Source: PVC group bacterium (lineage in GTDB: Bacteria > Verrucomicrobiota > Verrucomicrobiia > Chthoniobacterales > SZAS-18). Taken from it: a DNA stretch of 63,229 bases. Every line of letters starts with the position of its first letter. Positions within the stretch are counted from its first letter, which is position 1. Below the pieces are notes generated by a model. That model was not told the origin of the DNA. It searched no databases and was given only the letters and a program-made list of their open reading frames with translations. The DNA lies in contig CAHJWO010000001.1 in the NCBI GenBank assembly GCA_903642295.1, forward strand, positions 1 to 63,229, in the 5' to 3' direction. Below, piece by piece: positions 9,192 through 32,029 of this stretch. The position numbers and the translations under genes were made by a program.

Positions 9192-9200
9192 GTGGGGAGA

Positions 9201-15700: not shown

Positions 15701-18700
15701 GCGCGGCGGAGTTGCCGACCGACTGGTTGAAGGTCGTGAGCCCGGCGGTGTCGAGTGTCAGGGCGTGCGCGCCGTTGAGTGGGTCGTTGAAGGTGAGGTT
15801 GCCCGCGTTGGTACTGGTGAGCAGCGTGTCCGCGCCCAACTGCACGGCGTCCTTGTAGGTCTGGCCGTCCACGGTCTGGACCAGGCCGCCGCTGATGGTC
15901 AGGAAGCCACCGCCGCCCACGGTCAAGCTTTCCGCGTACACGGAGCTATCGAACCCGACCGCGCCGCCCGTGCTGATCGTCAGGTGATAAGGCGTGCCGA
16001 GGAGGGACGCTCCGAAGTGGATACCCCCCCCGCCGGTGCTGGTCAGGGTCGTATCTGCTTTCAAGAAAACGATTCCGTCGTAGTTCTGGGAGCCGGTGGT
16101 GGTGACGCTGCCGCCGCTGATCAGCAAACCGTTGCCGTTTATCTGCAAACTGGCGACGGAAACCGCCCCGCCCAAGTTCGCCGATCCCCCAAAGTTCAGG
16201 GTGAGGGCAAAGGGGCCGGTCACCGTCGAATGGAGGTCGAGGGAACCCAGGCCGTCGTTGAGAATGGTGTCCGCCCCGAGCGTGACGGGGTCGTTGTAGG
16301 TCTGCCCGGCCACGGTGTTGACCGCGCCACCCGCCAGCAGGGTCGTCCCCGGGCCATCGGTCGTGAGGGTGGACAAGCGGCCGGTGCCGCCAACCACGCC
16401 GGAGAACCGGGTCTGGCCACCGGTGTTGATGGCCAGCGAGAAATCGCCCAGGTCGGGCAGGATGGCGACAGAGTCCACCGTGGAGGCGAAGGCGATATCC
16501 CCACTGGCGGTGCTGGCAAGCGTCGTGTTCGCACCGAGCAGGACGGCGTCGCCGTAAGTTTGCGCGCCGGTGGTGCGGATCAGGCCCCCGTTGATTTGCG
16601 TGGTGCCGCCCGCGTCCGTCGTGAGGCTGAGCAGCGGAGTGGTGCCGCCGACGGGGCCGTCGAAGACCGTCAGGCCGCCGGTATTCAGCGTGAGGGCGCG
16701 CGGCGTGGCGGGGGCATCGCTGTCCACCGTGGAGAGGAAGGTGATGTTGCCGCCCGCCGCGAGGACCGTGGGGGCGGTCAGGATGACGGCGGTGTTGTAC
16801 TGCTGCGGGCCGGTGGTCGTGAAGGTGCCGCCCACGGCCACGCTCCCGCCGGTGCCGCTGTTCGGCTCCACGGAGAAAATCCCCACCGGGCCGACCTGGC
16901 CCGTGAACGTGGCGAGCGCGCCGCCGAGGTCGAAGCTGGTCGCGTCCACGCCGCCGGGCAGTTGCGTCTGGCCGACGACGGTGCGGACGTAGAGGTTCTG
17001 CCGTCCCGACGCGCTGCTCACGGTCGAGCCGAACGTGATCTGGCCGTTAGCGGTGTACGCTGGATCGGTCGGCGCTCCGGCGGTGCTGGTGAACACGGTC
17101 TGACTGCCCAGGAGGACCGGGTTCGCGTAGGTCTGCGGGCCGTTGCCGAACGTGAGCACGGTGGGGTTGGTCAGCGTGCTCCCGGCGACCGCAAAGCGCG
17201 CCTCGTCGTTGAGGGTCACCGCGCCGTTGACGCGCACCGCCGCCAGCGCGCCGAACTGCGCCTCGTCGGTGGGCGTGGGGGCGACGCCCGGAAAGAGCGG
17301 GTCCGTGGCGAATCCGCCCAGCGCGGTCGTGCCGCCCACCGGCCCGTTGAACACCTCGTTGCCCGGGGTGGAAGCGGCCAGGGAGACCGGGCCGTCCACC
17401 GTCCCGCCGAAGGTGATGGCGCTGGTCGCGCCGGTGGCCAGCAAACCGGTGTTGAGCTGGAGCGTCACCGCGCCGTTGTAAGTCTGCACGCCGACAGACA
17501 CCACGCTGGGATGGTCGGCGGTGGTCAGGGTGCTATTCGCCTCGTTAAAGAACGCGGGGCCGGTGACGGTCAGGCCGGTGGTGCCCACGTTGACGCCGCC
17601 CTTGCCAACCGTGGAGGCCCCCGCGCCCATGTTGAAGTGCGTGCCGCTGGTGGCAGTGGTACCCGAGGTGGAGACATTCAGCCCGGTCAGGGCGGTATCG
17701 TTGCCGACCAGATCGTTGAAGACCACCTGCGCATCCGGGCCGGTGACGCCAATTGCCAGCAGGGTCGCCCCGTCCACCCGGGAGGCGAAAGTCACGGCCC
17801 CAACCGCGTTGAGGCTCGGGTTGTTCGCCAGGGTGACGAGGTTGCCGTAGGCCTGCGCGCCCGTGGTGGTGAAGGCACCGTTGAGCAGCGTGCCGCCCGC
17901 GCCGTCGCTGGAGAAATTGGCCACGTTGGCGAACGCGCCCGGCACCGTGATCTGCCCGCCGAAATGCACGCTGAGGTCGTGCTGGTTGAAGTCCAGGGTG
18001 CCGCCGCTGGTCAGCGTCCCGCCGCCCCTGAGCGCGGTGTTCTGGCTGGCCGAACCGCCCTTGGCGTAGGTCTGTGAACCTCCGGTCAGCACCGTGGGCT
18101 GGCCGGGACTGCTGCCCATGGCCCCGAAGGCCACGGCGTCGTTAATCGTCACGTCGTTTGCAACGTTGACCCCCGCCGCCGCCGTTCCGATGGTCATGTT
18201 GAACCGCGTCGTGCCGGTGGTTACGCCCGCGTTGTCGGTCGTCAGGCTCGCCAGCCGCCCGGTCGTGGCGCTGCCGACCAGACCCGTGAAGACCTCGTCC
18301 CCGGCGGCGTTGACGACCAGCGCCTGCCCGCCGTCGGTCGTGCCATCGAGCGTTTTGTCGAACGTCACGTTGCTGCCCGTCGAGGAGAGCAAGGTCGAGG
18401 CCGCGCCGAGGGTGACGGAGCCGTTGTACTCCTGGAAGCCCGTGGAGCGGACCGATCCGCCGTTCAGCTTGATGACGCCGCCGCCGGTCACCAGCAGATT
18501 CCCCAGAGGACCGCTGCCCGCCACGGCGCCGCTGCCCACCGCTCCGCCGAAGGTCGTCGTGCCGCCGGTGCTCAGGGTGAGCGTGGGCGTGCCGCTGGCG
18601 GTGTTGTCCAGCGTCGAAACAAAATTCAGCGCACCGAGGCCGCCGGTCGCGGTGTCCTGCAAAACGGTGTTCGCCGCGCCGACCGTGACGGGTCCCTGGT

Positions 18701-21700
18701 AGAATTGACCTCCCGCAAAGGTGGTCACGCTCCCGCCATTGATTTTCGTGGTCCCGGTGCCCAGGGCATTCAACTGGTTGAGCGCCGCCAGATTGCCCAC
18801 CGGTCCGCTGTACACCACCGCGTTGGACGTGCTCGTGGTCAGTTGCCTGGTGTTGGGAGTCAGGCCGTTGACCGCGAAGAGGAAGTCGATCTCGCCGCCG
18901 GAAGTGCTGGTCAGCGTCGTGGGTCCTCCGGGCGCGCCCAGCACGACCGCCCCGCCGTAGCTTTGCCCACCGGTCGTGGTGATCGCGCCGCCGTTGAGCG
19001 AGATCATGCCGGCACCGGTGGTGATCGTCAGCGCAGCGAGCGGTGCGCCCCCGCCGCCGACCCCGCCGTTGAAAGCCACCGGGCCGGTGGTGTGCAGGGT
19101 CAACGCGAAGGCGGTGCCGGGGCTGCTGAGGGTGAACGGGGTGCCGCCCGGGTTCGAGCCGAACTCGAAGCCGCCCGGCCCGGCGTTCAAAGTGGAATTC
19201 GCGGTGAGCGTGGTGGGGTTGTCGTAATGCTGGTAGCCGGTGGTGGTGAAGGCCGCCGGGGAATTGGTGGCGATGGCCGTGCCGCCCGCGCCGTTGCTGG
19301 TGAAGTTGTGGATGTTGGTGAACCGGTTGCCGAGCGGGATCGTCACCAGGCTGGAAAGCGTGAGCGTCAGGTCGTGCGTCTGGGCGTTGACGACGTTGCC
19401 CGTGCCGTTCACCGTCACCGTCGAGCCGACGAACGTGGTGTCCGTCCCGAGCAGCACGCCGCCGGTGTAGTTCTGCGCGCCCAGCGTGTTGACCGAGCCG
19501 CCGTCGATGTGGATCGTCGGGCTGGTCACGGTCAGCGTGTTGAGCGCCGACGCGTTGAGCGGGGCCAGGCCGCCGCCGACCGCCCCGCCAAAGGTGACGG
19601 CCTCACCGGCGGCGTTGCCGGTCGTCACCGTCAGGTTGCTCGCGGGCGCGCCCGCCGACACCAGCGTCTTGTTGAAGGCGATGCTGCCGCCGGTCGAAGT
19701 GAGCGTCAGGCCGGTTGCGCCCGTGCCCGCCGCCGCGCTCTGGACGACCACCGGCCCCTGGTAGGTCTGCGTACCCGCCGTGGTGAAGGCGGCGTTGTTG
19801 AAGATCGTGCTGCCGTTGACGCTGGTGGTCAGGTTGTTGATCGGGGCCGCCGCCGCGCCGCTCCCCAAGCCGAACACCGTGTTGCCGCCCTGCGTGGCCG
19901 TGGTGAGGTTGAAACCCGCCCCGCCGAGCGTCGAGCCGAAGGTGACGGCCCCCGCCGCCGGGTCGGGGTTGGTGGTGGTCAACGCCACGTTCGCGCCGAG
20001 GGTCAGCGGGCTGTTGTAGGTTTGCGTGCCGGTCGTGGTGATGCCCGTCGTATTGAGCGCGGTGCCCGCGCCGCCCGCGTTGATCGTCAGGCTGCCGAGC
20101 GCATTGCCCGCGCCCGCGCCGACCAGTCCGTTGAACGTCGTGGTCCCGGCGGTAGCCAACGTCAGGTCGCCCCCGCCCACCACCGTGGAGCCGAAAGTGA
20201 TCGCACCCAGCGCGCCGATTCCGTTGTTTTTGAGCAACGTCCCGGTGCTCACCGTCGCCGCCCCGTTGTAGGTCTGCGCGTCCAACGTCTGCACGGTGGG
20301 ATGGGCCGCCGCGACGCCCGTGGCCTGGAACAGCGCGCCGTCGTTGATCTTCAGCGCCCCGGCGATGTTGACCCCGGCGGGGTTGAGGGCGTTCGCGCTG
20401 CCCGCGTTCATCTTGAACTGCGCCTGGCCGGTCGCCGGGCCGACGGCGTCGGTGGTCAGGCTCAGGAGCGGGACCCCGCCGCCCACCAGCCCGTTGAAGA
20501 CCTCGTTGCCGGGGGTGTTCAGGGTGAGAGCAACCGCGCCGTCGAGCGTCGAGTTGAACGTGATGTCGCTCGGATTGCCCGCACCCGTCCCGGCGGTGAG
20601 AACGGTCGGGAGCGCCGCCAAGGTCAGCGTGACGGGGTTGCCATAGGTTTGGCTGCCCGTGGTGCTGAAATTCCCCGCGATGGTCGTGGTGCTCGCGGGG
20701 CTGGTGCCGTTGCTCGTGAAGTTCTTGACCCCGGTGTAGAAATTGGCGAGGACGTTGCTGCTGAGCGTCAGCGTCAGGTCGAAGCCATTGCCGGCGAAGG
20801 CAGGAGTGATCACCGTCGTCGTGTTAGGTACGACGGGGGGTAAGGTGGTGGTCAAGGTGGTATTCCCGGCGAGCGACACGCCGTCGGCGTAGGTCTGAGT
20901 ACCGGTGGTGGTGACGCCGCCGTTCAGGCTGGTAGCGGCGGTGGCGGGAAGATCGGTCGTCACGCTCGCCAGGGGAGTGGTCCCGACGAACCCGCCGAAG
21001 GTCGTTTTGCCCGCCGTGTTGACCACGAGCGCCTGCGCGCCTGCCGTGTTGCTGTCCACCGTGCGGATGAAGGTAATATCGCCAGCGTTCAGCGAGGTCA
21101 GCGTGGTCGTCTGGGCGGCTCCCCCGGGCTGACCGAGGATGACCGGACCATTGTACGTTTGCAGGCCGTTCGTCCGGACCGTGTTCCCGCGGAGCGTCGT
21201 CGTCCCTGTGCCGGTGACGAGGCTGGCCAGGGCGTTCGCGGCCCCCACCGTGCCGGTGAAGGTCTGCGCGCCGGATGTCGTCAGAGTGAGCGCCTGTGTC
21301 AGCGGCGTGTTTCCTTCGACCGTGGAGATGAAATTGATGGGCCAATTGCCCGCCGCAAGGATCGTGGCGTTCGTGGCCGGGCCGAGGGTGACCGGGCCGT
21401 TGTACGCCTGTCCGCCCGCGCCGCTCGTGTTCACGGCACTCCCATTGAGCAGGACCGCGCCCATCCCCGTCGAGAGGCTGGCCAGGGGCACGGCGACCGT
21501 GCCCACCGCGCCGCCGAGGGTCGTCGTGTTCCGGGTGCTGATCGCCAACGCCTGGATTCCCGCCGTGGTCCCGGTGACCGCACCGGTGAGGCTCACCGGA
21601 CCCGGCCCTGCCGTGAGCGTCGTGGTGCCCGTCCCGCCGAGGACCACCGGGCCGTTGTAGGTCTGTCCCGCCGTGTCACTGGTGATGACGTCGGAGGTGT

Positions 21701-24551
21701 TGAGGTTGGTCGTGCCAGTGCCGGTGGTCAGCGAGGAAAGCGGCGAGGTGGCGATTCCGGTGCCGACCGGCGCGTTGAACGTGGTCGTGCCGTTATTGGT
21801 GATGCCCAGGCTGAACGCGGGGGGCGGTGTCGTGGTCGTCAGCGTGCCCCCCCCGCGCTGGAAGGTGATCGTGCCGCCCGCCGTCGCCATCCCGCTGACG
21901 GTGCTGGCAAGGGTCGAGTTGGTTGTCAGGAGCACCGCGTCGCCGTAGGTCTGCGCGCCCGTGGCGGTACCGTTGTTGACCGTGGTCACCGCCGCCGCGC
22001 CGCCGGGGACGTTGAGGATCGTGGCGTCATTCGCGCCAGCCTGGTAATCCGTGGCGAACCCGCCCAGCGCGGCGCTCACACCCGGCGCGGGGCTCCCGCC
22101 CACGGCGGCGTTGATCTGCGTGACCCCGCCCGTGTTGATCGTCAGCGTGTGGGCGTCCGTCGTCGTGGTCATCCCCATGGTCGTCGTGCTGCTGTACAAT
22201 GGCCCGTTCAGGGTCACCCCGACCCCCCCGGCGTTGCCCGCCGCCAGCGTTGCATCATGGGAAAGCGTGATGGGGCTCGTGGAGCCCGGGCTGTCGTAAA
22301 CCTGGCTGCCCGTCGTGATGAAATTGTTCCGATCAATCGCCACCCCGCCCGTCCCAAGCGACGCGAAGTTTGCCACGCTGTTGTTCACGATGCTCGCCAG
22401 CGACACCACCACGCCCAGCGTGAGGCTCAGGTTGTGCGTGCCTCCGTCGAGCATTGTACCCCCGCCGCCGATGGTCAGGCTGCCCGCCGTCAGGCTCGTG
22501 TCGCCCGTGAAGGTCGGCGCGGCGGCGAAGTTGATCGTCCCCGCCGGAGTGGTCGTCAGGTTGATCGTGCCGGGCGTCGTGCTGCCCGCCGTGTTGATCG
22601 CGTTGGCCGTCGCCGACCCCAGCGTGATGGCCGTCGGCGCCGCGCTCGTCGTCAGGGTGGCGGTGGTCCCCGTGCCGCCCACCGCAACGGCTCCGCCCGC
22701 CCCGGCGGTGGACGACGTGTTGAGGGAATAAACCTGGATCGGCCCCGGCACAATCGCCGTGGTGCCGGTGAGTTGCAGGGTAACGCTCCCGCCCCCCCGT
22801 ACCGCCGAAGACGTGTTGATGCTGCCGATCTCGATGGCGTTGGCGCTGGCGTTGCCGCCGGTGCTGTTGATCCCGCCCGCCGACGGTCCGCTCGCGGAAA
22901 TCGTCACGTTGCGCCCCGGCGCCAGGATGGTGTCCGGTGGGGCGGTGGCAACTAGGCCCGCAATGGTTCTTGCTGTCGAGCCCGCCATCACAAAGGAGCC
23001 CGTGCCGCCCACCCCCGCACGGAACGTCACCGTACCGCTCGTCGTGGCCGTCGCCGGGGCCAGGTTGAGGAAGCCACTGTTGGCCGGTGTATCCAGGCGG
23101 AGGCCCAGGTCCTCGATGCGGATGTCCTTGGTCGCCTCCAGGTCGATGTTGATGCCTGCGCCCAACGCTTCGAGCGAGGAGGCGGAGATGGTCGTCGGCG
23201 TGGCGTCGGTCGCCGCTACCGTGCCGTTGGCGGGCACGGTGCCGACGCCTGCGCCGGTCGTGGGCGTGATGTCAATGTTGGTCGGGTCGAGCAGCAAACT
23301 GCCCACCTTGCCCGCCGGGGCGTTCGCGTTCACCCCGCCCGTGAAGCCGAGTTGCCCGTGGCTGGAAACCTCCACCTGCCCGCCGTCGCCGCCCTGCCCG
23401 CCCGCGTTCGCGCTGATCTGTCCCTGGTAGCTCGTCAATCCGTCGGACCACAACACCACCGTACCGCCGTTACCGGTCGCGCCGGTCGCGTCGGCCTTGA
23501 TGGTGGTCGCCGCGTCCACAATAGTCGTCGCAGCGTGGGCCAGGTTGCCCTGCCCGTGGAAATCCCCGCCCACGCGCACGCTGCCACCGCCCGCTGTGCC
23601 GCTGGCGTCGAGCGTCGCACCTTTGAGGGCTACCGTGCCGCCGAGCACCTGGATGCTGCCACCCTTGGCGTCAGCGGTCGCGCCCGGCGCGCCGCTGGTG
23701 GCGGCGATTTTGCCGCCGACGGTCGCCGTACCGGCCCGCCCGGCGTTGACCGTGACGCTGTGGCCCTGGAGCAGGCCGGAATTGGAAATCGCGGTTGAAT
23801 ATAGGTCACCGCCGCCGATCAGCACCCGGGGTGCGGCCACTGTGCCGCTGTTGATGATGCTGCCGCTGCTCCCTTTCGCCGCCGTTGCACCCCCTGCTGC
23901 CGAGGTGCCCGCCTGCGACTTGCCGTTGGCTTGGACGAAGATGTTGCCGTCCTTCTCGCCGACGTACACGTCCTTGCCCGAAACCATCATCGCCATGCCC
24001 TTCGCGGCGTTGAGCGAGCCCGTGTTGACCACGTTCGCACCCATCAGGGCGATGCGGTTGTCGGCGGCCACGACGCCGTCGTTGCGCACGTCGCCCGCGA
24101 GGTCGGTAAAATGGACCTTGCCTCTGGCGAAGTCGGCGTCGCTCAGGTTGCCCGCGCCCGCGTAGAGGCTGCCCACGTTGATGACGCTGCCGTTACAAAA
24201 GTAAATGCCGTAGGGATTGACGATGAAGACGCGTCCGTTGCCTTCGAGCATCCCGAAGATCTGCGTCGGGTTCGCGCTGCCGACCACGCGGTTGAGCACG
24301 GAGCTTTGCGCGCTGGGCTGGACGAACTGCACCGTCTCGCCCGGCGCGATGTTGAAGCTGCCGTAGTTGATGATCGACTTGTTCCCGGCGGTGATGACCG
24401 TCAAGTTGCCGTTCTGCTGGAAGGTGGCGGTGCCGCTGACGACGTGCCCGCCCTTCGGCGCGGCGACGACGTAGGTGTCCGTGTAAGACACCAGCATGAA
24501 CAGCAGCACGCAAAACTTGCGGAGCGAAAGGGGTTTCCCGGTGGGTTTCAT
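9765..24551 (-). CDS. Giant two-partner-secretion adhesin (TpsA, filamentous haemagglutinin type)
   Basis: A 4928-residue exported protein. Residues 1 to about 31 form a signal peptide (hydrophobic FCVLLFMLVS, probable cut near VVAA). The TPS domain follows, with INYGSFNIAPGETVQFVQPS, then IFGMLEGNGRVFIVNPYGIY (a variant of the NPNG motif). From about residue 870 to 4390 the protein consists of some 45 imperfect repeats of about 78 residues with the core LTLNTGGTT-FDG-VG-G-PLASLTTDA-G-T-LN-G-ITTTGAQTY-DAVTLG, predicted to form a long beta-helix rod. The C terminus (from about 4600) is non-repetitive, charged, and ends in a Pro/Ala-rich tail. The transporter gene lies upstream in the same operon. 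Likely role: surface attachment or contact. Intact frame over 14.8 kb. Confidence 0.92.
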   Translation of the reverse strand: MKPTGKPLSLRKFCVLLFMLVSYTDTYVVAAPKGGHVVSGTATFQQNGNLTVITAGNKSIINYGSFNIAPGETVQFVQPSAQSSVLNRVVGSANPTQIFGMLEGNGRVFIVNPYGIYFCNGSVINVGSLYAGAGNLSDADFARGKVHFTDLAGDVRNDGVVAADNRIALMGANVVNTGSLNAAKGMAMMVSGKDVYVGEKDGNIFVQANGKSQAGTSAAGGATAAKGSSGSIINSGTVAAPRVLIGGGDLYSTAISNSGLLQGHSVTVNAGRAGTATVGGKIAATSGAPGATADAKGGSIQVLGGTVALKGATLDASGTAGGGSVRVGGDFHGQGNLAHAATTIVDAATTIKADATGATGNGGTVVLWSDGLTSYQGQISANAGGQGGDGGQVEVSSHGQLGFTGGVNANAPAGKVGSLLLDPTNIDITPTTGAGVGTVPANGTVAATDATPTTISASSLEALGAGINIDLEATKDIRIEDLGLRLDTPANSGFLNLAPATATTSGTVTFRAGVGGTGSFVMAGSTARTIAGLVATAPPDTILAPGRNVTISASGPSAGGINSTGGNASANAIEIGSINTSSAVRGGGSVTLQLTGTTAIVPGPIQVYSLNTSSTAGAGGAVAVGGTGTTATLTTSAAPTAITLGSATANAINTAGSTTPGTINLTTTPAGTINFAAAPTFTGDTSLTAGSLTIGGGGTMLDGGTHNLSLTLGVVVSLASIVNNSVANFASLGTGGVAIDRNNFITTGSQVYDSPGSTSPITLSHDATLAAGNAGGVGVTLNGPLYSSTTTMGMTTTTDAHTLTINTGGVTQINAAVGGSPAPGVSAALGGFATDYQAGANDATILNVPGGAAAVTTVNNGTATGAQTYGDAVLLTTNSTLASTVSGMATAGGTITFQRGGGTLTTTTPPPAFSLGITNNGTTTFNAPVGTGIATSPLSSLTTGTGTTNLNTSDVITSDTAGQTYNGPVVLGGTGTTTLTAGPGPVSLTGAVTGTTAGIQALAISTRNTTTLGGAVGTVAVPLASLSTGMGAVLLNGSAVNTSGAGGQAYNGPVTLGPATNATILAAGNWPINFISTVEGNTPLTQALTLTTSGAQTFTGTVGAANALASLVTGTGTTTLRGNTVRTNGLQTYNGPVILGQPGGAAQTTTLTSLNAGDITFIRTVDSNTAGAQALVVNTAGKTTFGGFVGTTPLASVTTDLPATAATSLNGGVTTTGTQTYADGVSLAGNTTLTTTLPPVVPNTTTVITPAFAGNGFDLTLTLSSNVLANFYTGVKNFTSNGTSPASTTTIAGNFSTTGSQTYGNPVTLTLAALPTVLTAGTGAGNPSDITFNSTLDGAVALTLNTPGNEVFNGLVGGGVPLLSLTTDAVGPATGQAQFKMNAGSANALNPAGVNIAGALKINDGALFQATGVAAAHPTVQTLDAQTYNGAATVSTGTLLKNNGIGALGAITFGSTVVGGGDLTLATAGTTTFNGLVGAGAGNALGSLTINAGGAGTALNTTGITTTGTQTYNSPLTLGANVALTTTNPDPAAGAVTFGSTLGGAGFNLTTATQGGNTVFGLGSGAAAAPINNLTTSVNGSTIFNNAAFTTAGTQTYQGPVVVQSAAAGTGATGLTLTSTGGSIAFNKTLVSAGAPASNLTVTTGNAAGEAVTFGGAVGGGLAPLNASALNTLTVTSPTIHIDGGSVNTLGAQNYTGGVLLGTDTTFVGSTVTVNGTGNVVNAQTHDLTLTLSSLVTIPLGNRFTNIHNFTSNGAGGTAIATNSPAAFTTTGYQHYDNPTTLTANSTLNAGPGGFEFGSNPGGTPFTLSSPGTAFALTLHTTGPVAFNGGVGGGGAPLAALTITTGAGMISLNGGAITTTGGQSYGGAVVLGAPGGPTTLTSTSGGEIDFLFAVNGLTPNTRQLTTSTSNAVVYSGPVGNLAALNQLNALGTGTTKINGGSVTTFAGGQFYQGPVTVGAANTVLQDTATGGLGALNFVSTLDNTASGTPTLTLSTGGTTTFGGAVGSGAVAGSGPLGNLLVTGGGVIKLNGGSVRSTGFQEYNGSVTLGAASTLLSSTGSNVTFDKTLDGTTDGGQALVVNAAGDEVFTGLVGSATTGRLASLTTDNAGVTTGTTRFNMTIGTAAAGVNVANDVTINDAVAFGAMGSSPGQPTVLTGGSQTYAKGGSASQNTALRGGGTLTSGGTLDFNQHDLSVHFGGQITVPGAFANVANFSSDGAGGTLLNGAFTTTGAQAYGNLVTLANNPSLNAVGAVTFASRVDGATLLAIGVTGPDAQVVFNDLVGNDTALTGLNVSTSGTTATSGTHFNMGAGASTVGKGGVNVGTTGLTVTGPAFFNEANSTLTTADHPSVVSVGVQTYNGAVTLQLNTGLLATGATSAITFGGTVDGPVSLAASTPGNEVFNGPVGGTTALGGFATDPLFPGVAPTPTDEAQFGALAAVRVNGAVTLNDEARFAVAGSTLTNPTVLTFGNGPQTYANPVLLGSQTVFTSTAGAPTDPAYTANGQITFGSTVSSASGRQNLYVRTVVGQTQLPGGVDATSFDLGGALATFTGQVGPVGIFSVEPNSGTGGSVAVGGTFTTTGPQQYNTAVILTAPTVLAAGGNITFLSTVDSDAPATPRALTLNTGGLTVFDGPVGGTTPLLSLTTDAGGTTQINGGLIRTTGAQTYGDAVLLGANTTLASTASGDIAFASTVDSVAILPDLGDFSLAINTGGQTRFSGVVGGTGRLSTLTTDGPGTTLLAGGAVNTVAGQTYNDPVTLGADTILNDGLGSLDLHSTVTGPFALTLNFGGSANLGGAVSVASLQINGNGLLISGGSVTTTGSQNYDGIVFLKADTTLTSTGGGGIHFGASLLGTPYHLTISTGGAVGFDSSVYAESLTVGGGGFLTISGGLVQTVDGQTYKDAVQLGADTLLTSTNAGNLTFNDPLNGAHALTLDTAGLTTFNQSVGNSAALTSLTTTAAGVTRLNGGLVATTGAQFYGNAVQLGSDNVLSSSAGGDLTFNSTLNGAQLLTLNTGGNTVFNAGVGVLTPLAGLTTDAPGATLLNARQVFVSGAQFYGDVVTLGHDTTLSGVSAGTITFHLTLDGAFALNLLASSVREFDGAVGGTTPLASLGTDGSGVTRINGGQVNTVGFQAYRSPVTLGADAVAASTGGDIRFARALDSDAPATPRNLTVNTTGTTEFDGAVGGGAALGSLTTDAGGTTLLAGGTITTVRTALTSGNQTYNDAVQLGASTALNSTGGGNLTFNRTVDGAFALTLDTGGLTVFNGVVGSGTPLTGLTSTLTGSPGEETQFNITVGGARAGVTVNGAVTINDDVRFDILGASLAQPGVLTVAQIGTLPPVNADQAYTNNVRLAANTFLTSADTLPAPGGAFTGGGAISFNIAPGTSLTSVGGSDLSVRSGVGTTRFASTINVGSLDLGGANATFAGPVTLPGLLSVAPNDNSTAGFVELAGGGLTTAGAQTYRVGLLLGAPTVLTSTGGGDLTFNGTVDSDPAGPARALNLNTSGNEYFYGLVGHVGPLASLTTDNPGPVGGTAYFRMPVGGAVAGVNVVGDVTINDAVSFEATGSSLAQPTILTGGSQTYNGAATLGQDTALVGGLAGSLVFNSTLDGPSNLTLRTGALQVFNGLVGSTTALANLTTNGGGTQFNQVLTGTAAPAGVRVTGDLTATGPVFFNVVGASAAQPSVLTGGAQTYRSAATLAQTTVLAGGGGLTFRATLDGAFALTLNTGGTTEFDGIVGGGTPLASLTTDAPGSTVLNTTAITTTGAQDYGDGVTLQSGITLTSNAAGLLIFRSTLDGAFALTLATAGTTQFNGAVGNGVPLASLTTDAPGTTVLNAGGVTTTGAQTFRDAVTLARDTTLASTATGDLTFNSALDGAFALTLNTAAATRLNGAVGNGVPLASLTTDAAGTTILKAGTITTTGKQDFGDGVTLQSGTTLTSNAAGLLIFRATLDGTFALTLNTAGTTEFDGTIGTGGALASLVTDAPGTTLLNGGSITTTGVQTFNDGVTLAKATTLAANGQITFANSLNGSALPLTITGATAASFNTITNTGALDWTVNGPTALDGTVGAATGAAGVASLSIRGNGVVTVNTDSIHTAGDQLFTGQVILNTARGTTENFRSDGGTVDFESPVTANGHDLNVTAQTAKFGPVDRAGFLNITANRTVFGNTVGAVRLAVSGALALNGSSVTTRDNQEYGGEITLGKPATLTSTLGNVLARSAVTGNANALTVNAVNATFLDRITGTGATRFTVSNTATLDGEVTNAASLTVDGTGKKIVLNTDRVQTNDFQTYSLPVSLGDGTSRQSNGDIILVSGNGGLTFNSTLDAGTAQTRNVTLSSPGSTVFNGRVGYASALASLTLGDAPGDTTPEGGSSHQAFINGGLVQTVNSQVYNGLVTTNADNAGGTTTLKSNGGDLIFNRTVTGAAGNLTATGNRIRLAEDANVLSGDLNLAASGELLLLEGSNYTSSGTVVFNGDPNTNAPDRLRYSTIVLTSNSVLVKGDSFQMGDLQKLYAPGALTIDVGRGVATVGDLAAGRTLRINADTIFLLNRPGGAMNTLGVDGGLTFAAGQSINFGGANLQFADRSAPQTASFVTTTGSTTIARRLGLSVFRNPNLAAQFRGTGALASTGLFDFAIPQQPIGGGSQTLDTAAAISGALPDQKPLDIPVDVNISASQMEELRKLGINPRKAEKREYGASSKRALFAQLVDSKDTENYGRLQPIKGGVSQLVPSEYVVVVDRMSEREVQTILKAFEDLYGKDKAKAPVIGTAYQKAYDDYTVEKKTDQPDGFAPYLKEKAGQYPDVDNAARGFDNLFGYIEHMGLTPVEVTKAEGHIVSDLGMSNPSSDDMVKVINAQRKALPPAQKAPSSKLPPAPPMASPGPATSPAPAASPAAKKEAPLKMVDQDGPPAGPRTAECSLPGPPNNPPTSLAGL

Positions 24552-24610
24552 GGAAAGAACGGCGTTGCGAACGGTTTTACGGAAAATTGGAGGTTAAACC
24601 CAGCAGAAAA

Positions 24611-24861
24611 GGAGGCAGGAGGCAGGAGGCAGGATGCGGGATGCAGGATGCAGGATGCAGGATGCAGGATGCTGGATGCTGGATGCAGGTGGTGGGAGAC
24701 AGGATGCAGGATGCAAGATGCAGGATGCAGGATGCAGGTGGTGGGATTCCGAGACGCGAGGAGAGAGATGTCGGAACCCGTTGGCTCTGTCTGCATCTTG
24801 CATCCTGCATCCTGCATCTTGCCTCCTGTATCCTGCATCCTGCATCCTGTATCTTGCCTCC
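24611..24861. repeat. Inverted heptamer array between tpsB and tpsA
   Basis: Left arm: about 20 consecutive heptamers based on GGATGCA (24611-24750), with variants GGAGGCA, GGATGCT and GGTGGTG. Right arm: ten heptamers of the complement, based on TGCATCC (24792-24861), ending 5 bases from the tpsB stop codon. About 40 unique bases separate the arms. In the tpsB-tpsA transcript the arms could pair into a stem of up to about 70 bp, 60 bases before the tpsA start. Confidence 0.92.
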
Positions 24862-24866
24862 TCCTC

Positions 24867-27182
24867 TCAGTACGAGATCACCCCGACAAAGCTGATATGG
24901 CTGGAGCCGACCGTCACGGGCCGGGAAGTCTTGCTGTCGTCCACGGCGCTGAGCGGGAATCCCCAATCCACCCGCAGGTTGAGGTAGCGCGACACCTGCA
25001 CTTCGACCCCCGCGCCGACGCTCGTGAGCAGCCGGTTCGCCTCAATGGTCTGAATGTCGTTGTTCTTGACGTAACCGAGGTCGTAAAACACCCGCAGGAT
25101 CACGTCGAGATCGGGGCGTCCGAGGATCGTGGGCGGACGGATGGCGAACTTCGGCAGCTTCGTCGGATCGACCTCGCCTTTCTGGTCGGTGTCGGCGGGT
25201 TTGAGGATGCGCGGCAGGTGGAAGCGGTACTCCGCGTTGAAGATGATGGAATCGTCGCCTGCCGTGAACGCTTCCGGGTAGCCGCGCACGGACACGAAAC
25301 CGCCGATCACATCCTCGAACTGCGGGATGAGGCGCTTGTCGCCGAAGGTGTACTGCCCGTGGACCTGGAAGGACAACTCGTGCGCGTCGGTGACCAACTT
25401 CCAGTAGCCCTTGCGTTTCCCGGCATCGGTCTCGTCCTCGTAACCCTTCCAGGCTTTGCGGAAAACGATGGGTTCGAGAAAGGCGCTGCCGCCGAAGCTG
25501 TAGCGCGCGATGACGAAATCCCGGTCCACGAGCAGGCGGCCCATGTTCTGGAGTTCGCTGTTGTCGGTGCCGATGACGCTGGGCAGATTGACCTCGACCT
25601 GGGCGTTGCCGAACACGCTGTACCGGTCCGTCAGCCGGTCGGTGGAGATGCCCGCGAGCGGGAGCAGGAAGTTCGTCGCACCGTTCTCCTGCCCACCGCC
25701 CACGTCCTTGATGTCCACGTGGCGGAATTCGACGCCCGCGAACAGGTCGATGGGGAATCCCTTCACATAATAGGGCGTGTAGATGGCCAGCAGACCCGCC
25801 GTGACGCTCTCGCCCCGGAAGGCCGCGAGGTCGAAACCTACGTCCTCGGCCAGGAACTTGCCGTAACCGCCGTAAGCCTTGAGCTTGAGCTTGTCCGGGA
25901 AAATCACCGCCGCCTGATAGGAACCGAAGGCCGAATAGGTGGCCGAGGAAAGCGAGGTCTCGAAACTGGCGTCGAGCAGGTCGTCCAACCCGGCGAGCTG
26001 CCGCAGCTCGAACCCGAGGCGCGTGCGCCAGGTGCCCGAGGCTTCCGTGCCGGTGTTGGAGGTCTGGTCGAAGAGGAAAATGGACGGCTTCTCCGCGTGG
26101 ACGATGTAGTCGAGCACCACGCCGCCCTCCTCGCCCGAGGCGCTCACGGCCACGTCCACCCGGCGGCCCGGGAAGCGGTTGATGCGGTCGAGGTAATCCT
26201 GGAGTTCGGAGCGGCGCAGCAGGCTGCCGGTGCCGGGCTTGTCCTTGTCCGCCGCCTTGAGGGGCGAATTCTTGGTGATCTTGTTGTACTTGGGATCTTC
26301 CACCGTCGTGGCCAGGCCCTTGAAGGGCGGCTTCGGCACGGGTTTGACGATGGTCCGCACCGTCTTGATCTCGCTGGCGTAGATCAGCAGGGTCAACTCG
26401 GTGCTGCCGTTGCGCTTGTCCTCGCCGGTGGAGGGCACGATCTGGTCGGGGTCGGGAATGACGAACACCCCGTAGATCCCCTTTTTGTTGACCTCGCCGG
26501 AGAGGGCCAGGGACAGGCTTTGCAGCGCATCGCCGGAGAAGACTTCCGCCGTCTTGAACTTGCCGAGCACCACCGGCACGTCTCGCGCCCCCGCGCCGGC
26601 GGCGACGTAGCCGCCGTTGGGGTCCTTGGATTCGCCCAGGGTGAGCGGCGCGTTGGCGAGGGTTTCCACCGGCGGCAAGCCGGGGTGCGGCGGGTTCTTG
26701 GGCGGACCGTACTTGATCGTGAACCGGGAAACCTTGTACTTGAGGTCCTTGACATTGACGGGCACGGCGGGCTGTTCGACGAGCGGGCCGCTAGTGCCGA
26801 AGTTCAACCCGGGCAGGATGGGCACGGGCTGGAGCGGCGTTTGGCCCGGGGGGATGAGTTCCATCGTCGGGGTGTCGCTGCCCGGCCTGGGCAGGGCGTC
26901 GCCGGTGCCGAAACCGGGCAGGCCCACCGCCGGGGTTTCGGGGCTGGCCGCGGACGGTCCGGCGGGCACGGTTGGCACCGCCGGGGTGGACGGGCTGGCC
27001 GGCACCACGGGATCAGCGGCAAAAGAGCGGAGCGCGCCCGGCACGACGATCAGCAGGCAGGCCGCGAGGACGAAGGACCCGCGGACGAAGGACGAGCGAC
27101 CGCGAAGGCGCGCCGACGATTGGCCCCGAACACCGGTCGGACGCGGAGAATTACCTGGGGTCGGCGTGTGCGCTGTCTGCAT
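24867..27182 (-). CDS. Two-partner-secretion outer-membrane transporter (TpsB, Omp85/ShlB family)
   Basis: A 771-residue protein that should export the adjacent giant adhesin. After a long basic N terminus there is a signal peptide (SFVLAACLLIVVPGALRSFA) and a Pro-rich linker (about 60-140). POTRA-like sequence follows, including SELQDYLDRINRFPGRRVDV. The rest is a beta-barrel. The hallmark Omp85 loop-6 motif VRGY is present at about residue 630 (GGFVSVRGYPEAFTAGDDS), and the chain ends with an aromatic residue (VGVISY). The start ATG has a good ribosome-binding site (AGGAGA, about 8 bases). The order is transporter first, adhesin second. The Pro-rich linker and extended POTRA region make it longer than typical ShlB or FhaC, which have about 560 residues. 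Confidence 0.9.
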   Translation of the reverse strand: MQTAHTPTPGNSPRPTGVRGQSSARLRGRSSFVRGSFVLAACLLIVVPGALRSFAADPVVPASPSTPAVPTVPAGPSAASPETPAVGLPGFGTGDALPRPGSDTPTMELIPPGQTPLQPVPILPGLNFGTSGPLVEQPAVPVNVKDLKYKVSRFTIKYGPPKNPPHPGLPPVETLANAPLTLGESKDPNGGYVAAGAGARDVPVVLGKFKTAEVFSGDALQSLSLALSGEVNKKGIYGVFVIPDPDQIVPSTGEDKRNGSTELTLLIYASEIKTVRTIVKPVPKPPFKGLATTVEDPKYNKITKNSPLKAADKDKPGTGSLLRRSELQDYLDRINRFPGRRVDVAVSASGEEGGVVLDYIVHAEKPSIFLFDQTSNTGTEASGTWRTRLGFELRQLAGLDDLLDASFETSLSSATYSAFGSYQAAVIFPDKLKLKAYGGYGKFLAEDVGFDLAAFRGESVTAGLLAIYTPYYVKGFPIDLFAGVEFRHVDIKDVGGGQENGATNFLLPLAGISTDRLTDRYSVFGNAQVEVNLPSVIGTDNSELQNMGRLLVDRDFVIARYSFGGSAFLEPIVFRKAWKGYEDETDAGKRKGYWKLVTDAHELSFQVHGQYTFGDKRLIPQFEDVIGGFVSVRGYPEAFTAGDDSIIFNAEYRFHLPRILKPADTDQKGEVDPTKLPKFAIRPPTILGRPDLDVILRVFYDLGYVKNNDIQTIEANRLLTSVGAGVEVQVSRYLNLRVDWGFPLSAVDDSKTSRPVTVGSSHISFVGVISY

Positions 27183-27366
27183 AAAAATGTCTCCTGCCCA
27201 GCGCTGCGCGAAAGTCGCCCTCCGGCTGAAGGAACCCGGAGCAGTGCCTTTCCGAGTTGTAAACAGCCGTGCGCCAGTGGAAAGAGAGATTTGTTTTGGC
27301 CAAAGATCTGCCTGGGTGGCAAGAAAAATCTTCGGAGAAATCTACGGCCGCCCCGGGCGAGACAAT

Positions 27367-27382
27367 CTTCGCTAAGGCGAAG
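27367..27382. terminator. Small hairpin at the end of the yheT-like gene
   Basis: Arms CTTCGC and GCGAAG with a 4-base loop, overlapping the stop codon of the hydrolase gene. The stem is short and lacks a strong U-tract, so it is a weak terminator candidate. The remaining gap to tpsB (27183-27366) holds the tpsB leader and nothing else recognisable. Confidence 0.3.
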
Positions 27383-28379
27383 CACGAAGTTCAACGCCGC
27401 GAATCGGTTGCAAACCTGCACTCACATCGCTGAGAAACGATACCACGCGCCGCTCTGCCCAGGTCCGCCCGTGGCCCTCGGCGAAATCCACGAAGCCGAC
27501 GTGTCCACCGCGGGCGGGCGCTTCCAGGAAGAAATGCGGGTTCGCCTCGGCCTCGGGAAACGGGAAACACTCCGGCGGCAGAAAGGGATCGTCCCGGGCG
27601 TTGATGAGCAGAGTGGGCACGGAGATACCCGCGAGGTATTGGCGCGAACTGGATTGCCGCCAGTAATCCTCCGCGTTGCGGAAGCCGTGCAGCCGCGCCG
27701 TGTAGCGGTCGTCGAACTCCTGGAAGGTCCGCACGCGCCGGATGCCGGTCAGGTCGATCTCGCCGGGAAAGCCCCGCGCCTTTTCCTCGACCTTGGCGAT
27801 GAGCGTTTGCAGGAACCGCCCCAGGTACACACGGTTGTCCCAGCGCCGGTCCAGCGTCCGGGCGCTGGCGGCCAGATCGACTGGCGCGGAGATCGCCGCG
27901 CCGCCGAGGATCGCGGGGCTGGGTGGGGCTTCGCCCAAATATTTGAGGGTCATGTTGCCGCCGAGGCTGAACCCGACCAGGGCGATGCCGTCCGGGTAGC
28001 CGGGCGCGGCGTGGCGGATGACCGCGCCGAGGTCGCCGGTCTCGCCGCTGTGGTAGAAGCGCAGCAGGCGGTTGGGACGCGGCCCGCAGCCGCGAAAGCT
28101 CCAGGCCAGCACGTCCCAGCCCGCCGCGCCCAGCGCCGCCGCCATCCCCCGGATGTAACCGGCCTCCGCGCTGCCTTCCAAGCCGTGTGACAGGATCGCC
28201 AAACGGCGGTGGCCGGATTTTTTCCAGTTGAGGTGGAGAAAGTCGCCGTCCGGCAGTTCGAGGATTTCCGCGTGGTCCAGCCGGGGCAAACGCCGACGCC
28301 AGAAGACCGGCAGGATCGTTTGCAGGTGTCCGCCGCGCAGCCAGCGGGGCGGGTGGAAGCCGGGAGGGAGGACGGGCAT
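27372..28379 (-). CDS. Alpha/beta-fold hydrolase, YheT family
   Basis: About 335 residues from the ATG at 28379 (MPVLPPGFHPPRWLRGGHLQ). A TTG 18 bases earlier lies inside the heptamer array and is less likely. YheT/COG0429 signatures are the opening RGGHLQTI, LSHGLEGSAEAGYIRGMA, WSFRGCGPRPNRLLRFYHSG, the nucleophile elbow GFSLGGN, the acid in INARDDPFLPPECF, and the base in RGGHVGFVD. These are cytoplasmic esterase-like enzymes of uncertain substrate. There is no signal peptide. The gene is transcribed towards tpsB, with about 190 bp between them. Confidence 0.9.
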   Translation of the reverse strand: MPVLPPGFHPPRWLRGGHLQTILPVFWRRRLPRLDHAEILELPDGDFLHLNWKKSGHRRLAILSHGLEGSAEAGYIRGMAAALGAAGWDVLAWSFRGCGPRPNRLLRFYHSGETGDLGAVIRHAAPGYPDGIALVGFSLGGNMTLKYLGEAPPSPAILGGAAISAPVDLAASARTLDRRWDNRVYLGRFLQTLIAKVEEKARGFPGEIDLTGIRRVRTFQEFDDRYTARLHGFRNAEDYWRQSSSRQYLAGISVPTLLINARDDPFLPPECFPFPEAEANPHFFLEAPARGGHVGFVDFAEGHGRTWAERRVVSFLSDVSAGLQPIRGVELRASP

Positions 28380-28390
28380 GGGTGGGGAAA

Positions 28391-28451
28391 GATCCAAGAT
28401 TCAAGATCCAAGATCCAAGATCCAAGGAAGATTCAAGGTTCAAGGTCCAAA
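28391..28451. repeat. Heptamer tandem repeat in the yheT leader
   Basis: Consecutive heptamers GATCCAA/GATTCAA (five copies), a short interruption, then GATTCAA, GGTTCAA and GGTCCAA. The array starts about 12 bases upstream of the hydrolase ATG, the same arrangement as at tssA. Related GGTTCAA/GATTCAA units occur inside hrpA at 38577-38597. Confidence 0.8.
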
Positions 28452-28480
28452 GGGGATAGGACAAACGTGTCTCAAAACTC

Positions 28481-28665
28481 TGTCATCCTGAGCGGAGCGA
28501 GGCACGAGCGCAGTCGAAAGCCGAGTCCGCGAGACAGCCATAGGCAAACCTTCCGGCCGCCGGCAGGCAACGCTTTTTGTCCACCCCGCTTCGAACTCTT
28601 CGCCGACCGTCGCTGCCGCGGGCCGGAAGGTCCTTCGATCTCGTTGCACTCGCCTCAGGATGACA
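28481..28665. repeat. 185-bp interspersed element with TGTCATCCTGAG ends, copy 1
   Basis: Perfect 12-bp terminal inverted repeats, TGTCATCCTGAG and CTCAGGATGACA, plus inner inverted segments around CCTTCCGGCC/GGCCGGAAGG. Bases 28483-28565 reappear in reverse complement at 33643-33726. The element fills the gap between the hydrolase and SUI1 genes; no open reading frame in it looks real. Confidence 0.75.
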
Positions 28666-28723
28666 GAATTTGAAGATGCGTCCGCCCTGTCCGGAAAAGG
28701 TCCGAAACACGGTCGCACGAATC

Positions 28724-29119
28724 TCATTTTACTCCGGCAACCTGGAAGCCCTCCGCTTCGAGCGCGGCGCGGACTTTGTCGGGCTGGTCGCCCTGGATTT
28801 CCACACGGCGATCCTTCACCGTGCCGCCGCAGCCGCAGGCCGCGCGGACCCGTTTCGCCACGGCTGCGATCACGGAGAGGGGCAGGTGGGTAGCGAAATC
28901 GTCGATGACCACCACCGTCTTGCCGCCCCGGTGGGCGCGTTCGCGGCGCAGGACGACGCGGCCCATTTTCCAGAGCGGCGTGGGTGCCTCTCCCGGAGGC
29001 GCAACGGGTCCGGCGGGAAGATCGGCGGGCAGCGCCACCCCGGCAAAGGCATCGCTGAGACCCGTCAGCGGCGATGGGGCAGCGTGGGTGTCGAGGCGTT
29101 TTTTCGGTTCGGGACGCAT
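28724..29119 (-). CDS. SUI1/eIF1-like translation factor (YciH family)
   Basis: 131 residues from the ATG at 29119 (MRPEPKKRLDTHAAPSPLTG). Earlier in-frame ATGs at 29146 and 29218 exist but precede the family homology. The C-terminal 80 residues are a SUI1 domain: the basic GRVVLRRERAHRGGKTVVVI, then LRAACGCGGT-type (here RVRAACGCGGTVKDRRVEIQ) and ALEAEGFQV. Bacterial members bind the ribosome and can influence start-codon selection, but their physiological role is poorly defined. The Ala/Pro-rich N-terminal 50 residues are probably disordered. Confidence 0.88.
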   Translation of the reverse strand: MRPEPKKRLDTHAAPSPLTGLSDAFAGVALPADLPAGPVAPPGEAPTPLWKMGRVVLRRERAHRGGKTVVVIDDFATHLPLSVIAAVAKRVRAACGCGGTVKDRRVEIQGDQPDKVRAALEAEGFQVAGVK

Positions 29120-29241
29120 GGGAAAGGGGCGAAGTGAGAGGAGCATGAACGGAAGCTGCCGCTGATTCAATCTGCTTCCTGCGTGGTACGAAGGCATTTT
29201 CCCGCCCTGCGCAGGCATTTCCCGACACCATTCCCTCTTCC

Positions 29242-29305: not shown

Positions 29306-32029
29306 TCAACCTTCCCGGCGCAGGTCGATGACCTCGCCGATGCCCCGGTAACGGTCGGGGTGGCAGGTGCAGACCAGGATTTGCAGGCCCCGGCCCGCCG
29401 CGTCGCTCAGGAGGTCGAGCACCCGCTGCTGCCGGTCGGCGTCCGTGTTGACCAATACGTCGTCGAGGATGAGCGACTGCGGCCCCTCCCCTTTCCCGGC
29501 GAGTTCCTCCGCGATGGCCAGCCGCAGGCAAAGCAGGAGTTGCTCTTTGGCACCCTGAGAGAGGTCGGCAAAGTGGACGAGTTCCCCGTCCTTGCGACCG
29601 AGGCCACGGACCGCCAGCGATTGATCCAGGAAGACCCGGCGGTCGCGCTCGCCACTGACCTGCGCGAACCGTGCGCCCAGCCGTTCCTGCAACGGAGCCA
29701 GCACCGCAAGGGTCGCGGCTTGCTTGCGGCGGGCGATCAGGTCGTGAACCAACCGCGCCGCCCGGCTGCGGGCGCGGGCGTGGGTGACCTGCGCGGCGAG
29801 GGTTTCGCGCTCCGCCTGGCAAGCCGCCTCGCGGGAGTGCAGCGACTGGGAACCGAGGAGTTCGAGCCGTCCGCGCAGGGCGGCCAGCGTGTCGCGCTTG
29901 CGCGTGAGTTCGCCGTGGACCTGTTCGACGGCGGCGGCGGCGCGGCGGTGGCGGTCGGGCAGGGTGTCGGCGTCGGGCGGGAGTTTTGCCTGGGCTCGCT
30001 GGTGAATGATCTTGGCCTCGACAAACGTTTCCTCGGCGGCATCGCGTGCGGCCTGCAATCCCTCGGGGTAGCGGGCCAGGATGTCGGCGGATTGGCGTTG
30101 GAGGTTTTCCTGCTGGAGCCGCAGGGTGAGGAGCGCGCGCTCCGCCTGCTCCCCCGCCCGTGCAGCATCCCCGGCGGCTTCGCGGGCGGCCTTGAGGCGG
30201 TGGTCCAACTCTTTTTGTTCCTGCCGTCGGCTTTCGGATTGCACGAGCGCGCGTTGCTCGGCGGCGTCGAGGTCGGGGCGGGAGACGGCGCGCTCTTCGT
30301 CGGTGAGCCCGAGTTCGTCTTCGAGCGCCTGGAGTTGGCGGCGTTCCCCGGCGAGCTTCGTGCGCAGGGCATCGGCAGTTTCCTCGCCGCCGAGCACGGC
30401 GGCAAGGGCCTTGTGGGCGGCGGAAAGACGCGCGTCGAGCGCCCGGGCGGTTTCAACGAAGCCGCGCATGGTTTCCACGTCCGGAGCGCCGAGTTCGGAG
30501 AGTTCGCTGCGAAGAGTTGCCTCGTCCACCGCAAGGGTTTCGCCCAGGGCGCGCGCCTCGCCCGCACCGCTGCGCACCCGCACCTGGCCCCAACCCGGCA
30601 GGTCGAGTACGGCGCTCCCCACGGCGCGCAAAACGTGCGTCGCCCCGGCGCGGATGACGGGCAGCGCGGCGGCAGGGGCTTCGTCGGTACGGGCGGTGAC
30701 GACCACGTCGGCGGAAGGGAGCAATTCCACCGAGAGGCTGAGGGCTTCCACCCGGGCGCGGTTCGTGCGGACCGATTCCGCGAGCTTTTCCAGGCTGCGC
30801 AGTTTGGCGGGCGGGACGGTGGGGATTTCGGCGCGTGCCCTCGTCGAGGTTTCGATGGCGGCGACCTCCGCGTTGCAACGCTCCAGCGCGGCGGCGTGGC
30901 GGGCGGCGTTTTCGGCGGTCTGGCGGTGCTTCGCTAGGCGGCCCGAACGGTGGACGGCGGCCTGCACGACCGCGAGCGCGGCGGCGTTTTCCTCGCGGGC
31001 GGTTTCCAGGGTGCGGATGGCGTCTTCGGCGCGGACGGTGGCCTGTTGGCGGCGCTGGAGATCGGTTTCGGCGGTGGCGAATTGGCGGGCGAGTTCGGTG
31101 CCCTCGCGGGCGTGGTGTTCCAGGGCGTCGGCATCCCGGCGGACGGCGCGGAGGCGGTCCTGGGCCGTCTCGAAAGCCTGCCGGGATTTTTCGGCCTCGG
31201 AGGTGAGGACGGCGACCTGATTGGCGGCTTCGCGGAGGCGGTCGGCCTCGCGTCGGCAGGCGGCGTGTTCCGCTTCGCGGCGGGGCAGTTCGTCGGCGAG
31301 GCGCAGGTAGGTTTCCTCGTCGGCCTGGAGTTGCTGACGGGTCCCGGCGATCTCGGCCAGTTCTTCTTCCACGCGGGCGAGCTTGGCCTCGGCGGCGAGG
31401 AGGGTGCCCCCGGCCTTGGGCTGGCCGGTGGCGGGGGTAAAGTTCTCCAGGTAGGCCGCCCACAGACGCTCGCGGACGGCTTCGATGAAGGGGTCGATCT
31501 CCACCTTGACCAGCATTCCCTGGACGAGCTGGCCCGCCGCGTTCCGATGCCACTCGGGCCATTCGGCGAGTTCGCCCTGGCGCGTCCAGAGGTAGCCGAG
31601 CATCCCCCAGTGGGCGATTTCCGTCGCGCCCCGGCCCGGCTTGCTGGATTGGAGCAGGGCGTTGAGGCGGTCGTCGGCGGCGTCCCCGTCGGCGACGAGC
31701 CGCCAGTCGTCCGCGCCGTGGTATTCGTGCAATTCGCTGCGGAAGCTTTGGAGGAAAGTTTTCTCGACGCGGAACCGACCGGCGACCGTGGTAAAATCCA
31801 CCGTGACGACCGGCGCGAGGGCCGTGCCGACCGGGCGGAGGTTTTTGATCTCGCGGGCGGTGCAGGTGTGGCGGTCGAACAGGGCGCGGCCAGCGGCTTT
31901 GAGGAGGGTGGTCTTGCCGGTTTCGTTGGGCGCGGCGAGGATGTTCAAGCCCGGCGCAAAGGGTCCAGCGACGACCGGCGGGCCGACAAAAGGTCCGACG
32001 TTGGCGGCGGTCACGCGGTGCAGGATCAT
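29306..32029 (-). CDS. SbcC/YhaN-like SMC-family ATPase
   Basis: 907 residues from the ATG at 32029 (MILHRVTAANVGPFVGPPVV). The frame is open further upstream, but that part overlaps the nuclease gene in another frame. Walker A is at residues 33-41 (APNETGKTT). Long Glu/Arg/Ala-rich coiled coils follow for about 650 residues. The C-terminal signature LSQGAKEQLLLCLRLAIAEE and Walker B SLILDDVLVNTD close the head. No CxxC zinc hook is seen at the apex, as in YhaN rather than canonical SbcC/Rad50. The start codon overlaps the stop of the upstream nuclease gene (ATGA at 32026-32029), so the two are translationally coupled. Probable role: ATP-driven partner of the nuclease in DNA end processing or repair. 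Confidence 0.88.
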   Translation of the reverse strand: MILHRVTAANVGPFVGPPVVAGPFAPGLNILAAPNETGKTTLLKAAGRALFDRHTCTAREIKNLRPVGTALAPVVTVDFTTVAGRFRVEKTFLQSFRSELHEYHGADDWRLVADGDAADDRLNALLQSSKPGRGATEIAHWGMLGYLWTRQGELAEWPEWHRNAAGQLVQGMLVKVEIDPFIEAVRERLWAAYLENFTPATGQPKAGGTLLAAEAKLARVEEELAEIAGTRQQLQADEETYLRLADELPRREAEHAACRREADRLREAANQVAVLTSEAEKSRQAFETAQDRLRAVRRDADALEHHAREGTELARQFATAETDLQRRQQATVRAEDAIRTLETAREENAAALAVVQAAVHRSGRLAKHRQTAENAARHAAALERCNAEVAAIETSTRARAEIPTVPPAKLRSLEKLAESVRTNRARVEALSLSVELLPSADVVVTARTDEAPAAALPVIRAGATHVLRAVGSAVLDLPGWGQVRVRSGAGEARALGETLAVDEATLRSELSELGAPDVETMRGFVETARALDARLSAAHKALAAVLGGEETADALRTKLAGERRQLQALEDELGLTDEERAVSRPDLDAAEQRALVQSESRRQEQKELDHRLKAAREAAGDAARAGEQAERALLTLRLQQENLQRQSADILARYPEGLQAARDAAEETFVEAKIIHQRAQAKLPPDADTLPDRHRRAAAAVEQVHGELTRKRDTLAALRGRLELLGSQSLHSREAACQAERETLAAQVTHARARSRAARLVHDLIARRKQAATLAVLAPLQERLGARFAQVSGERDRRVFLDQSLAVRGLGRKDGELVHFADLSQGAKEQLLLCLRLAIAEELAGKGEGPQSLILDDVLVNTDADRQQRVLDLLSDAAGRGLQILVCTCHPDRYRGIGEVIDLRREG

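Follow-up and report, generated by a model that had tools for sequence, protein, structure and literature searches.

Inverted heptamer arrays between tpsB and tpsA in a PVC group bacterium belong to a dispersed class of strand-oriented intergenic repeats

Introduction

The window analysed here, a 63,229-nucleotide stretch of a PVC group bacterium genome, carries two facing arrays of heptanucleotides in the spacer between two genes of a two-partner secretion (TPS) system. An earlier note on this DNA described a giant potential hairpin which, as RNA, could terminate, protect or be processed within the operon and thereby set the ratio of transporter (TpsB) to adhesin (TpsA). The question raised by the locus is whether the arrays serve these two genes or belong to something more general. 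We conclude that the tpsB-tpsA hairpin is one of dozens of dispersed intergenic heptamer arrays, and is not a TPS device.

Results and Discussion

Structure of the tpsB-tpsA spacer

The spacer and its flanking genes comprise the following features, in order of transcription.

24867-27182, minus strand: tpsB, an Omp85/ShlB-type two-partner secretion transporter (open reading frame; Pfam PF03865 ShlB, E 8.9e-8; 66% identity to a same-genus relative); the start is uncertain, and our own gene caller favours 27044
24791-24862, minus strand: 5' sense arm (TRF period 7, 10.3 copies, unit CTGCATC, 80% matches)
24739-24790, no strand: centre (loop) of 52 bases between the two complementary arms
24610-24738, plus strand: purine arm, the 3' sense arm (TRF period 7, 18.4 copies, unit AGGATGC, 86% matches)
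~24687-24699, plus strand: 13-base interruption of the purine arm, read from the sequence, at which the array scan splits the arm
24552-24609, minus strand: remaining tpsA leader, 58 nt from array to start codon (sequence and open reading frames)
9765-24551, minus strand: tpsA, a 4928-aa TpsA-type exoprotein with a TPS secretion domain (PF05860, E 6e-22; TIGR01901, E 6.7e-18)

The inverted, complementary heptamer arrays described earlier were recovered by TRF (~18 versus ~10 units), and the Pfam ShlB and TPS domain matches bear out their location, with a TpsB-type transporter gene on one side and a TpsA-type adhesin gene on the other. The shorter arm holds ~10 heptamers, the number first given, is purine-rich (GGATGCA) on the minus strand and starts 4 nt past the tpsB stop (24867-24869, minus strand). 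The longer arm holds ~18 GGATGCA-type heptamers, somewhat short of the ~20 claimed; it is purine-rich on the plus strand and pyrimidine-rich (CTGCATC) in the sense strand of tpsA, whose ATG lies at 24551. Split by its interruption, the longer arm consists of ~11 and 5.5 clean units, and a motif resembling the interruption, AGGTGGTGGGA, recurs at its inner end. The centre measures 52 bases and not 40 as had been stated, is unrelated in sequence to the centres of other inverted pairs, and lacks any promoter- or terminator-like site. Because the assembly is a draft of 407 contigs, several of which have an end within arrays of this kind, the unit counts may be collapsed; long arrays are under-counted for the same reason. 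Variation in unit number is plausible, arm lengths being uncorrelated (r = 0.16).

Both strands of the spacer are predicted to fold stably as RNA. The plus strand (24560-24900) scored -185.6 kcal/mol versus -124.3 for shuffles (z -11.9), and the minus strand, which is the true sense strand (24541-24885), scored -153 kcal/mol versus -102.6 (z -9.5). The predicted fold of the sense-strand gap contains 77 arm-to-arm pairs, which agrees with the hairpin potential proposed earlier (up to 70 bp). In a tpsB-tpsA transcript the arms would fold into a long stem starting just past the tpsB stop. A duplex of such length is a likely RNase III-type substrate. The most likely molecular consequence would be RNase III-type cleavage or locally altered decay of the mRNA, which may be tolerated rather than evolved as a regulator of the TPS genes; a protective or RNA-processing role at this locus is possible.

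No intrinsic terminator (GC-rich stem and T run) was found in 24552-24866. Rfam returned 0 families at gathering threshold in 24000-28500, and a known RNA family was rejected on this basis. A search for related loci with TpsB as query returned nothing, and the literal repeat strings had no occurrence in the literature searched. Another genome of the same genus (G001) also has tpsB and tpsA adjacent, at 61-65% identity, and no array is present in their 145-bp gap.

Heptamer arrays across the genome

The window's genome (G000) is a draft MAG of 4.38 Mb in 407 contigs and is 91.7% complete. Matches to four GGATGCA units with at most 3 mismatches number 181 in forward and 146 in reverse orientation. 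A heptamer array is present in 59 of 701 sampled intergenic spacers, and 93 of 115 arrays are intergenic. When 454 kb were sampled for strict tandem arrays, 15 had period 7 and each period other than its multiples had 0-3, which excludes chance as their origin. Over 1.8 Mb, 103 arrays had period 7 and no period outside the multiples of 7 exceeded 17, so that only period 7 and its multiples are enriched. At least five unit families can be distinguished among the arrays: GGATGCA; AAGGATG; AAGGCAG/CTG/CGG; AAGTCGG/AAGTGGG/AACGCGG; and AAGATCC/AAGATTC/AAGAACC/AAGGTTC. Three further arrays lie in the window itself.

28389-28450, plus strand: AAGATCC/AAGATTC/AAGGTTC array, ~10 nt from a gene start, same orientation rule as described below
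9200-9240, plus strand: AAGGCTG/AAGGATG array, 8 bp upstream of the start of an ImpA-type gene, same rule
37884-37959, plus strand: AAGGCAG/AAGGATG array inside a long open reading frame

Other features of the window were recorded alongside. A second inverted repeat, CTGTCATCCTGAGCGAG...CGAAGGACCTTCC, occurs at 28470-28700 and at loci L043, L046, L047, L054 and L086, and is often nested within a heptamer pair. A perfect tandem repeat of 3.7 copies of the 21-base unit AACCGGGAGGACGGGGCTCGA (100% match) lies at 36028-36105 on the plus strand. Type VI secretion genes (VipA, ImpA) are located just beyond the far end of tpsA (7569-9191, minus strand).

Orientation at gene boundaries

Genes were called by codon usage in 1.8 Mb with a home-made caller, on which the boundaries used here depend. 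A single rule governs arrays from at least five unit families: the purine strand runs outward from the adjacent gene. Sense-strand pyrimidine prevails in start-adjacent arrays (67 of 70, or 67:3) and sense-strand purine in stop-adjacent arrays (48 of 53, or 48:5), and the inverted pairs of all 30 spacers that hold one are purine-first (RY 30, YR 0; p = 2e-9). Some of the sampled contigs had been chosen for holding arrays; in the part sampled without regard to arrays the figures are 48:3 for starts, 27:2 for stops and 21:0 for pairs. At tpsB-tpsA, the tpsB-side arm follows the rule closely, and the tpsA-facing arm follows it in orientation but lies 58 nt from the gene.

Of 123 arrays, 95 have an edge no more than 20 bp from a gene, versus 50 expected under random placement in the same spacer. 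Occupancy differs with the type of spacer: 3 of 137 convergent spacers hold an array versus 71 of 513 tandem spacers (p = 3e-5), and in the part sampled without regard to arrays occupancy is 9.9% for tandem, 8.8% for divergent and 2.6% for convergent spacers. A flush-hairpin score applied to all spacers missed many arrays, their arms being offset.

Termination was considered as a general role and is unlikely, because convergent spacers, which most need terminators, are depleted in arrays (2.2% occupied); in the tpsB-tpsA gap itself the search of 24552-24866 had yielded no candidate site. The proposal of a terminator is not upheld on either count. Avoidance of upstream ATG was rejected as the cause of the orientation, since families whose purine strand lacks ATG follow the same rule (30:1 at starts, 22:2 at stops). 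Avoidance of SD-like sequence was rejected in the same way, arrays without an SD-like tetramer also conforming (7:1 and 6:0). A promoter bracketed by the arms was rejected as well: centres are slightly AT-richer (48% versus 41%) and show no sense-strand bias of sigma-70-like sites.

Leaders without arrays are still pyrimidine-rich and SD-poor (SD-like 10.8% versus complement 25.1%), and judging from this composition such leaders are a plausible reason for the start-side rule. Leader bias leaves the purine sense after stops unexplained, and unpaired stop-adjacent arrays are also purine-sense (21:4). In this SD-poor genome, the window encodes a small SUI1-domain protein (SUI1 being a translation initiation factor) at 28727-29146 on the minus strand.

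Turnover at orthologous spacers

The genes flanking 30 array-bearing spacers were searched in two genomes of the same genus, and the spacers were then compared. The length filter left 19 orthologous spacers, of which 10 are empty and 9 hold arrays. Occupancy of 9/19 exceeds that of other spacers in the same stretches (11/65; Fisher p = 0.012, a recurrence result that rests on 19 spacers). The unit in the occupied spacers is usually different: AAGATCC in G000 is exchanged for GGATGCA and AAGGCGG in G001 (L043/L085), AAGATCC by a GAATGAC-type unit (L053/L284), and AAGTCGG by a GGATGTG/GAGATAT-type unit (L117/L288). Orthologous spacers with both arms are purine-first every time. Re-occupation of the same sites with new units hints that selection may act on the bracket itself.

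The two arms of a spacer resemble each other in unit and differ freely in length. Unit sharing is 0.64 between arms of the same spacer versus 0.34 between different spacers, the highest of 10,000 permutations reaching 0.52, and arm lengths within a spacer are uncorrelated (r = 0.16). Shared units with unlinked lengths would fit inverted copying followed by independent slippage; the sharing of units would also fit selection for complementarity.

Relatives and other phyla

Pair order can be scored independently of gene calls. It is 9:0 purine-first in the same genus, and, counted from match coordinates among the places listed, purine-first in seven of seven pairs of G006 (same family) and in four pairs of G025, whose unit is AAGCAGT and which belongs to a different family of the order. 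GGATGCA loci in other phyla give 16 RY and 2 YR pairs. With crude gene calls, the same cross-phylum set follows the rule 27:11 on the stop side and is even on the start side (5:5); the missing start-side signal is probably due to the crude calling.

Exact (GGATGCA)4 was found in more than 92 stretches, from Bacteroidales, Nitrosomonadales, Gallionella, Chloroflexi, Methanophagales and others (loci L155-L234). G018, of the same order as the window's genome, carries many strand-biased GAACTCC/GAACCCC arrays (366 forward versus 152 reverse matches) and, unlike its relatives, has no inverted pairs among the places listed by match coordinates.

Comparison with known repeats

The STRR heptamers of heterocystous cyanobacteria, including that of the tRNA-Leu intron hairpin, are heptanucleotide arrays, some of which form hairpins via complementary units; in both respects they resemble the arrays described here. 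REP/BIME elements are likewise dispersed extragenic inverted repeats, but their unit is a 20-40 bp palindrome, accompanied by a RAYT transposase, and not a tandem heptamer. Direct repeats of the heptamer TAACTGA in marine Beggiatoaceae, some Cyanobacteria and Bacteroidetes likewise occupy SD-poor leaders, a few nt ahead of the start codon; they differ in being direct only (one inverted case), in having one fixed unit and in lacking a purine/pyrimidine tract (PMC4679880).

The closest known system is that of the intergenic GGGAATC / GGGGA(C/T)T heptamers of Xanthomonas and Nostoc, for which G-quadruplexes were discussed and the function was called unknown (Rehm et al., 2015; PMC4692102). The G-rich strand of those repeats is non-coding upstream of ORFs and coding downstream, within 0-50 bp, and 70-75 convergent inverted pairs occur per Xanthomonas genome (Rehm et al., 2015). 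Common to both are the 7-nt unit, the dispersed intergenic location, the outward purine strand near ORF ends and the convergent inverted pairs. The Rehm-type repeats have one quadruplex-forming unit per genome, whereas G000 has many units, nearly all without three-tetrad capacity, and 16% of the former lie between convergent ORFs, where the latter are depleted. Sites are mostly kept between close species in the published case (83% the same between two of them), whereas those of G000, compared with same-genus genomes at a median of 64% protein identity and thus more divergent than the species of Rehm et al., are often empty or re-occupied by another unit. The G000 arrays are the same kind of repeat without the quadruplex, with many units and fast replacement.

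Origin of the arrays

The arrays have a unit of seven nucleotides, are dispersed, lie at gene boundaries with the purine strand outward, share units between arms, and are lost or replaced between species. The tpsB-tpsA feature is probably one member of a genome-wide class of fast-turnover intergenic heptanucleotide arrays that are grown by slippage, copied in inverted orientation and oriented at gene boundaries. Such arrays would be born and grow through 7-nt slippage during replication, and a second arm would arise by inverted copying, through fold-back or template switching, after which the length of each arm would change on its own. A constraint at gene boundaries that is independent of the unit (pyrimidine sense before starts, purine sense after stops) would remove the other orientation. 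Some observations count against this reading: the bias of leaders fails for the stop side, where even unpaired arrays keep the orientation, and orthologous spacers are re-occupied with new units more often than neighbouring spacers are occupied.

Loss of SbcCD was rejected as the reason inverted repeats persist, SbcD being present in the genome (full SbcD at G000:C6). An MRE11/RAD50-like pair lies in the window ~4.4 kb from the array (29306-33273, minus strand), and consists of an SbcC/RAD50-like ATPase with a weak Walker B match and an adjacent calcineurin-type phosphoesterase with partial SbcD similarity.

Alternatively, the target of selection may be a hairpin whose ends abut both genes, whatever its sequence. 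Read-through transcripts would have the pyrimidine leader locked by the purine arm, insulating neighbouring genes from each other and leaving the units free to turn over. This would account for the strict RY order across unrelated unit families and genera, the placement flush with genes, the matching of units within a spacer, the near absence of arrays between convergent genes, and the rebuilding of the same bracket from different heptamers at L043/L085, L053/L284 and L117/L288. We nonetheless consider it unlikely, as roughly every second orthologous spacer is empty, tpsB-tpsA included, some pairs combine mismatched families (L040, L095, L133), many arrays have no partner arm, and centres carry no sense-oriented promoter signal; a hairpin alone would, moreover, permit YR as well as RY.

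The dedicated TPS role proposed earlier draws on the very stable predicted fold and on the location between the two genes. Like arrays adjoin unrelated genes, and the orthologous gap of the same genus has none, which leaves the ratio-setting role without support; together with the lack of a terminator-like site in the gap and the depletion between convergent genes, these findings make a dedicated device improbable. Slightly more improbable still are mobile palindromes of the REP/BIME or MITE-like kind with heptamer arms. Dispersal, intergenic location and inverted arms would suit such elements, as would the recurrence of the unit order AAGATCC-AAGATTC-AAGAACC-AAGATCC or near variants at L043, L053, L118 and L138, but centres are unrelated, arm length and unit vary freely, single arrays are common, and neither a common element core nor an Rfam family was found. 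Regulation by G-quadruplexes, the reading put forward for the GGGAATC repeats of Xanthomonas and Nostoc (Rehm et al., 2015), shares the placement rule and the convergent inverted pairs, but for the G000 genome it appears largely refuted and very improbable, since four GGG runs (three-tetrad capacity) occur in only 2 of 123 arrays, the other 121 keep the rule, and the window's R arm carries two GGG runs.

Conclusions

Within its genome the tpsB-tpsA locus is ordinary, but the rule it follows stands out: unrelated heptamers in unrelated bacteria keep to one strict strand orientation where genes begin and end, and there is no agreed explanation for this. The G-quadruplex interpretation in the literature is weakened by the data, which also speak against avoidance of spurious start codons or ribosome-binding sites as the whole explanation. 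Whether the asymmetry originates in slippage, R-loops, translation or RNA decay is a testable question. It is conceivable, although we hold this only tentatively, that a spacer bracket independent of sequence exists in several bacterial phyla. It would consist of complementary heptamer arrays with the purine strand always leaving the gene, repeatedly rebuilt with new units at the same boundaries, and selected or created by an RNA- or replication-level asymmetry at gene ends. If so, G-quadruplexes would also have to be dropped as the cause in Xanthomonas and Nostoc.
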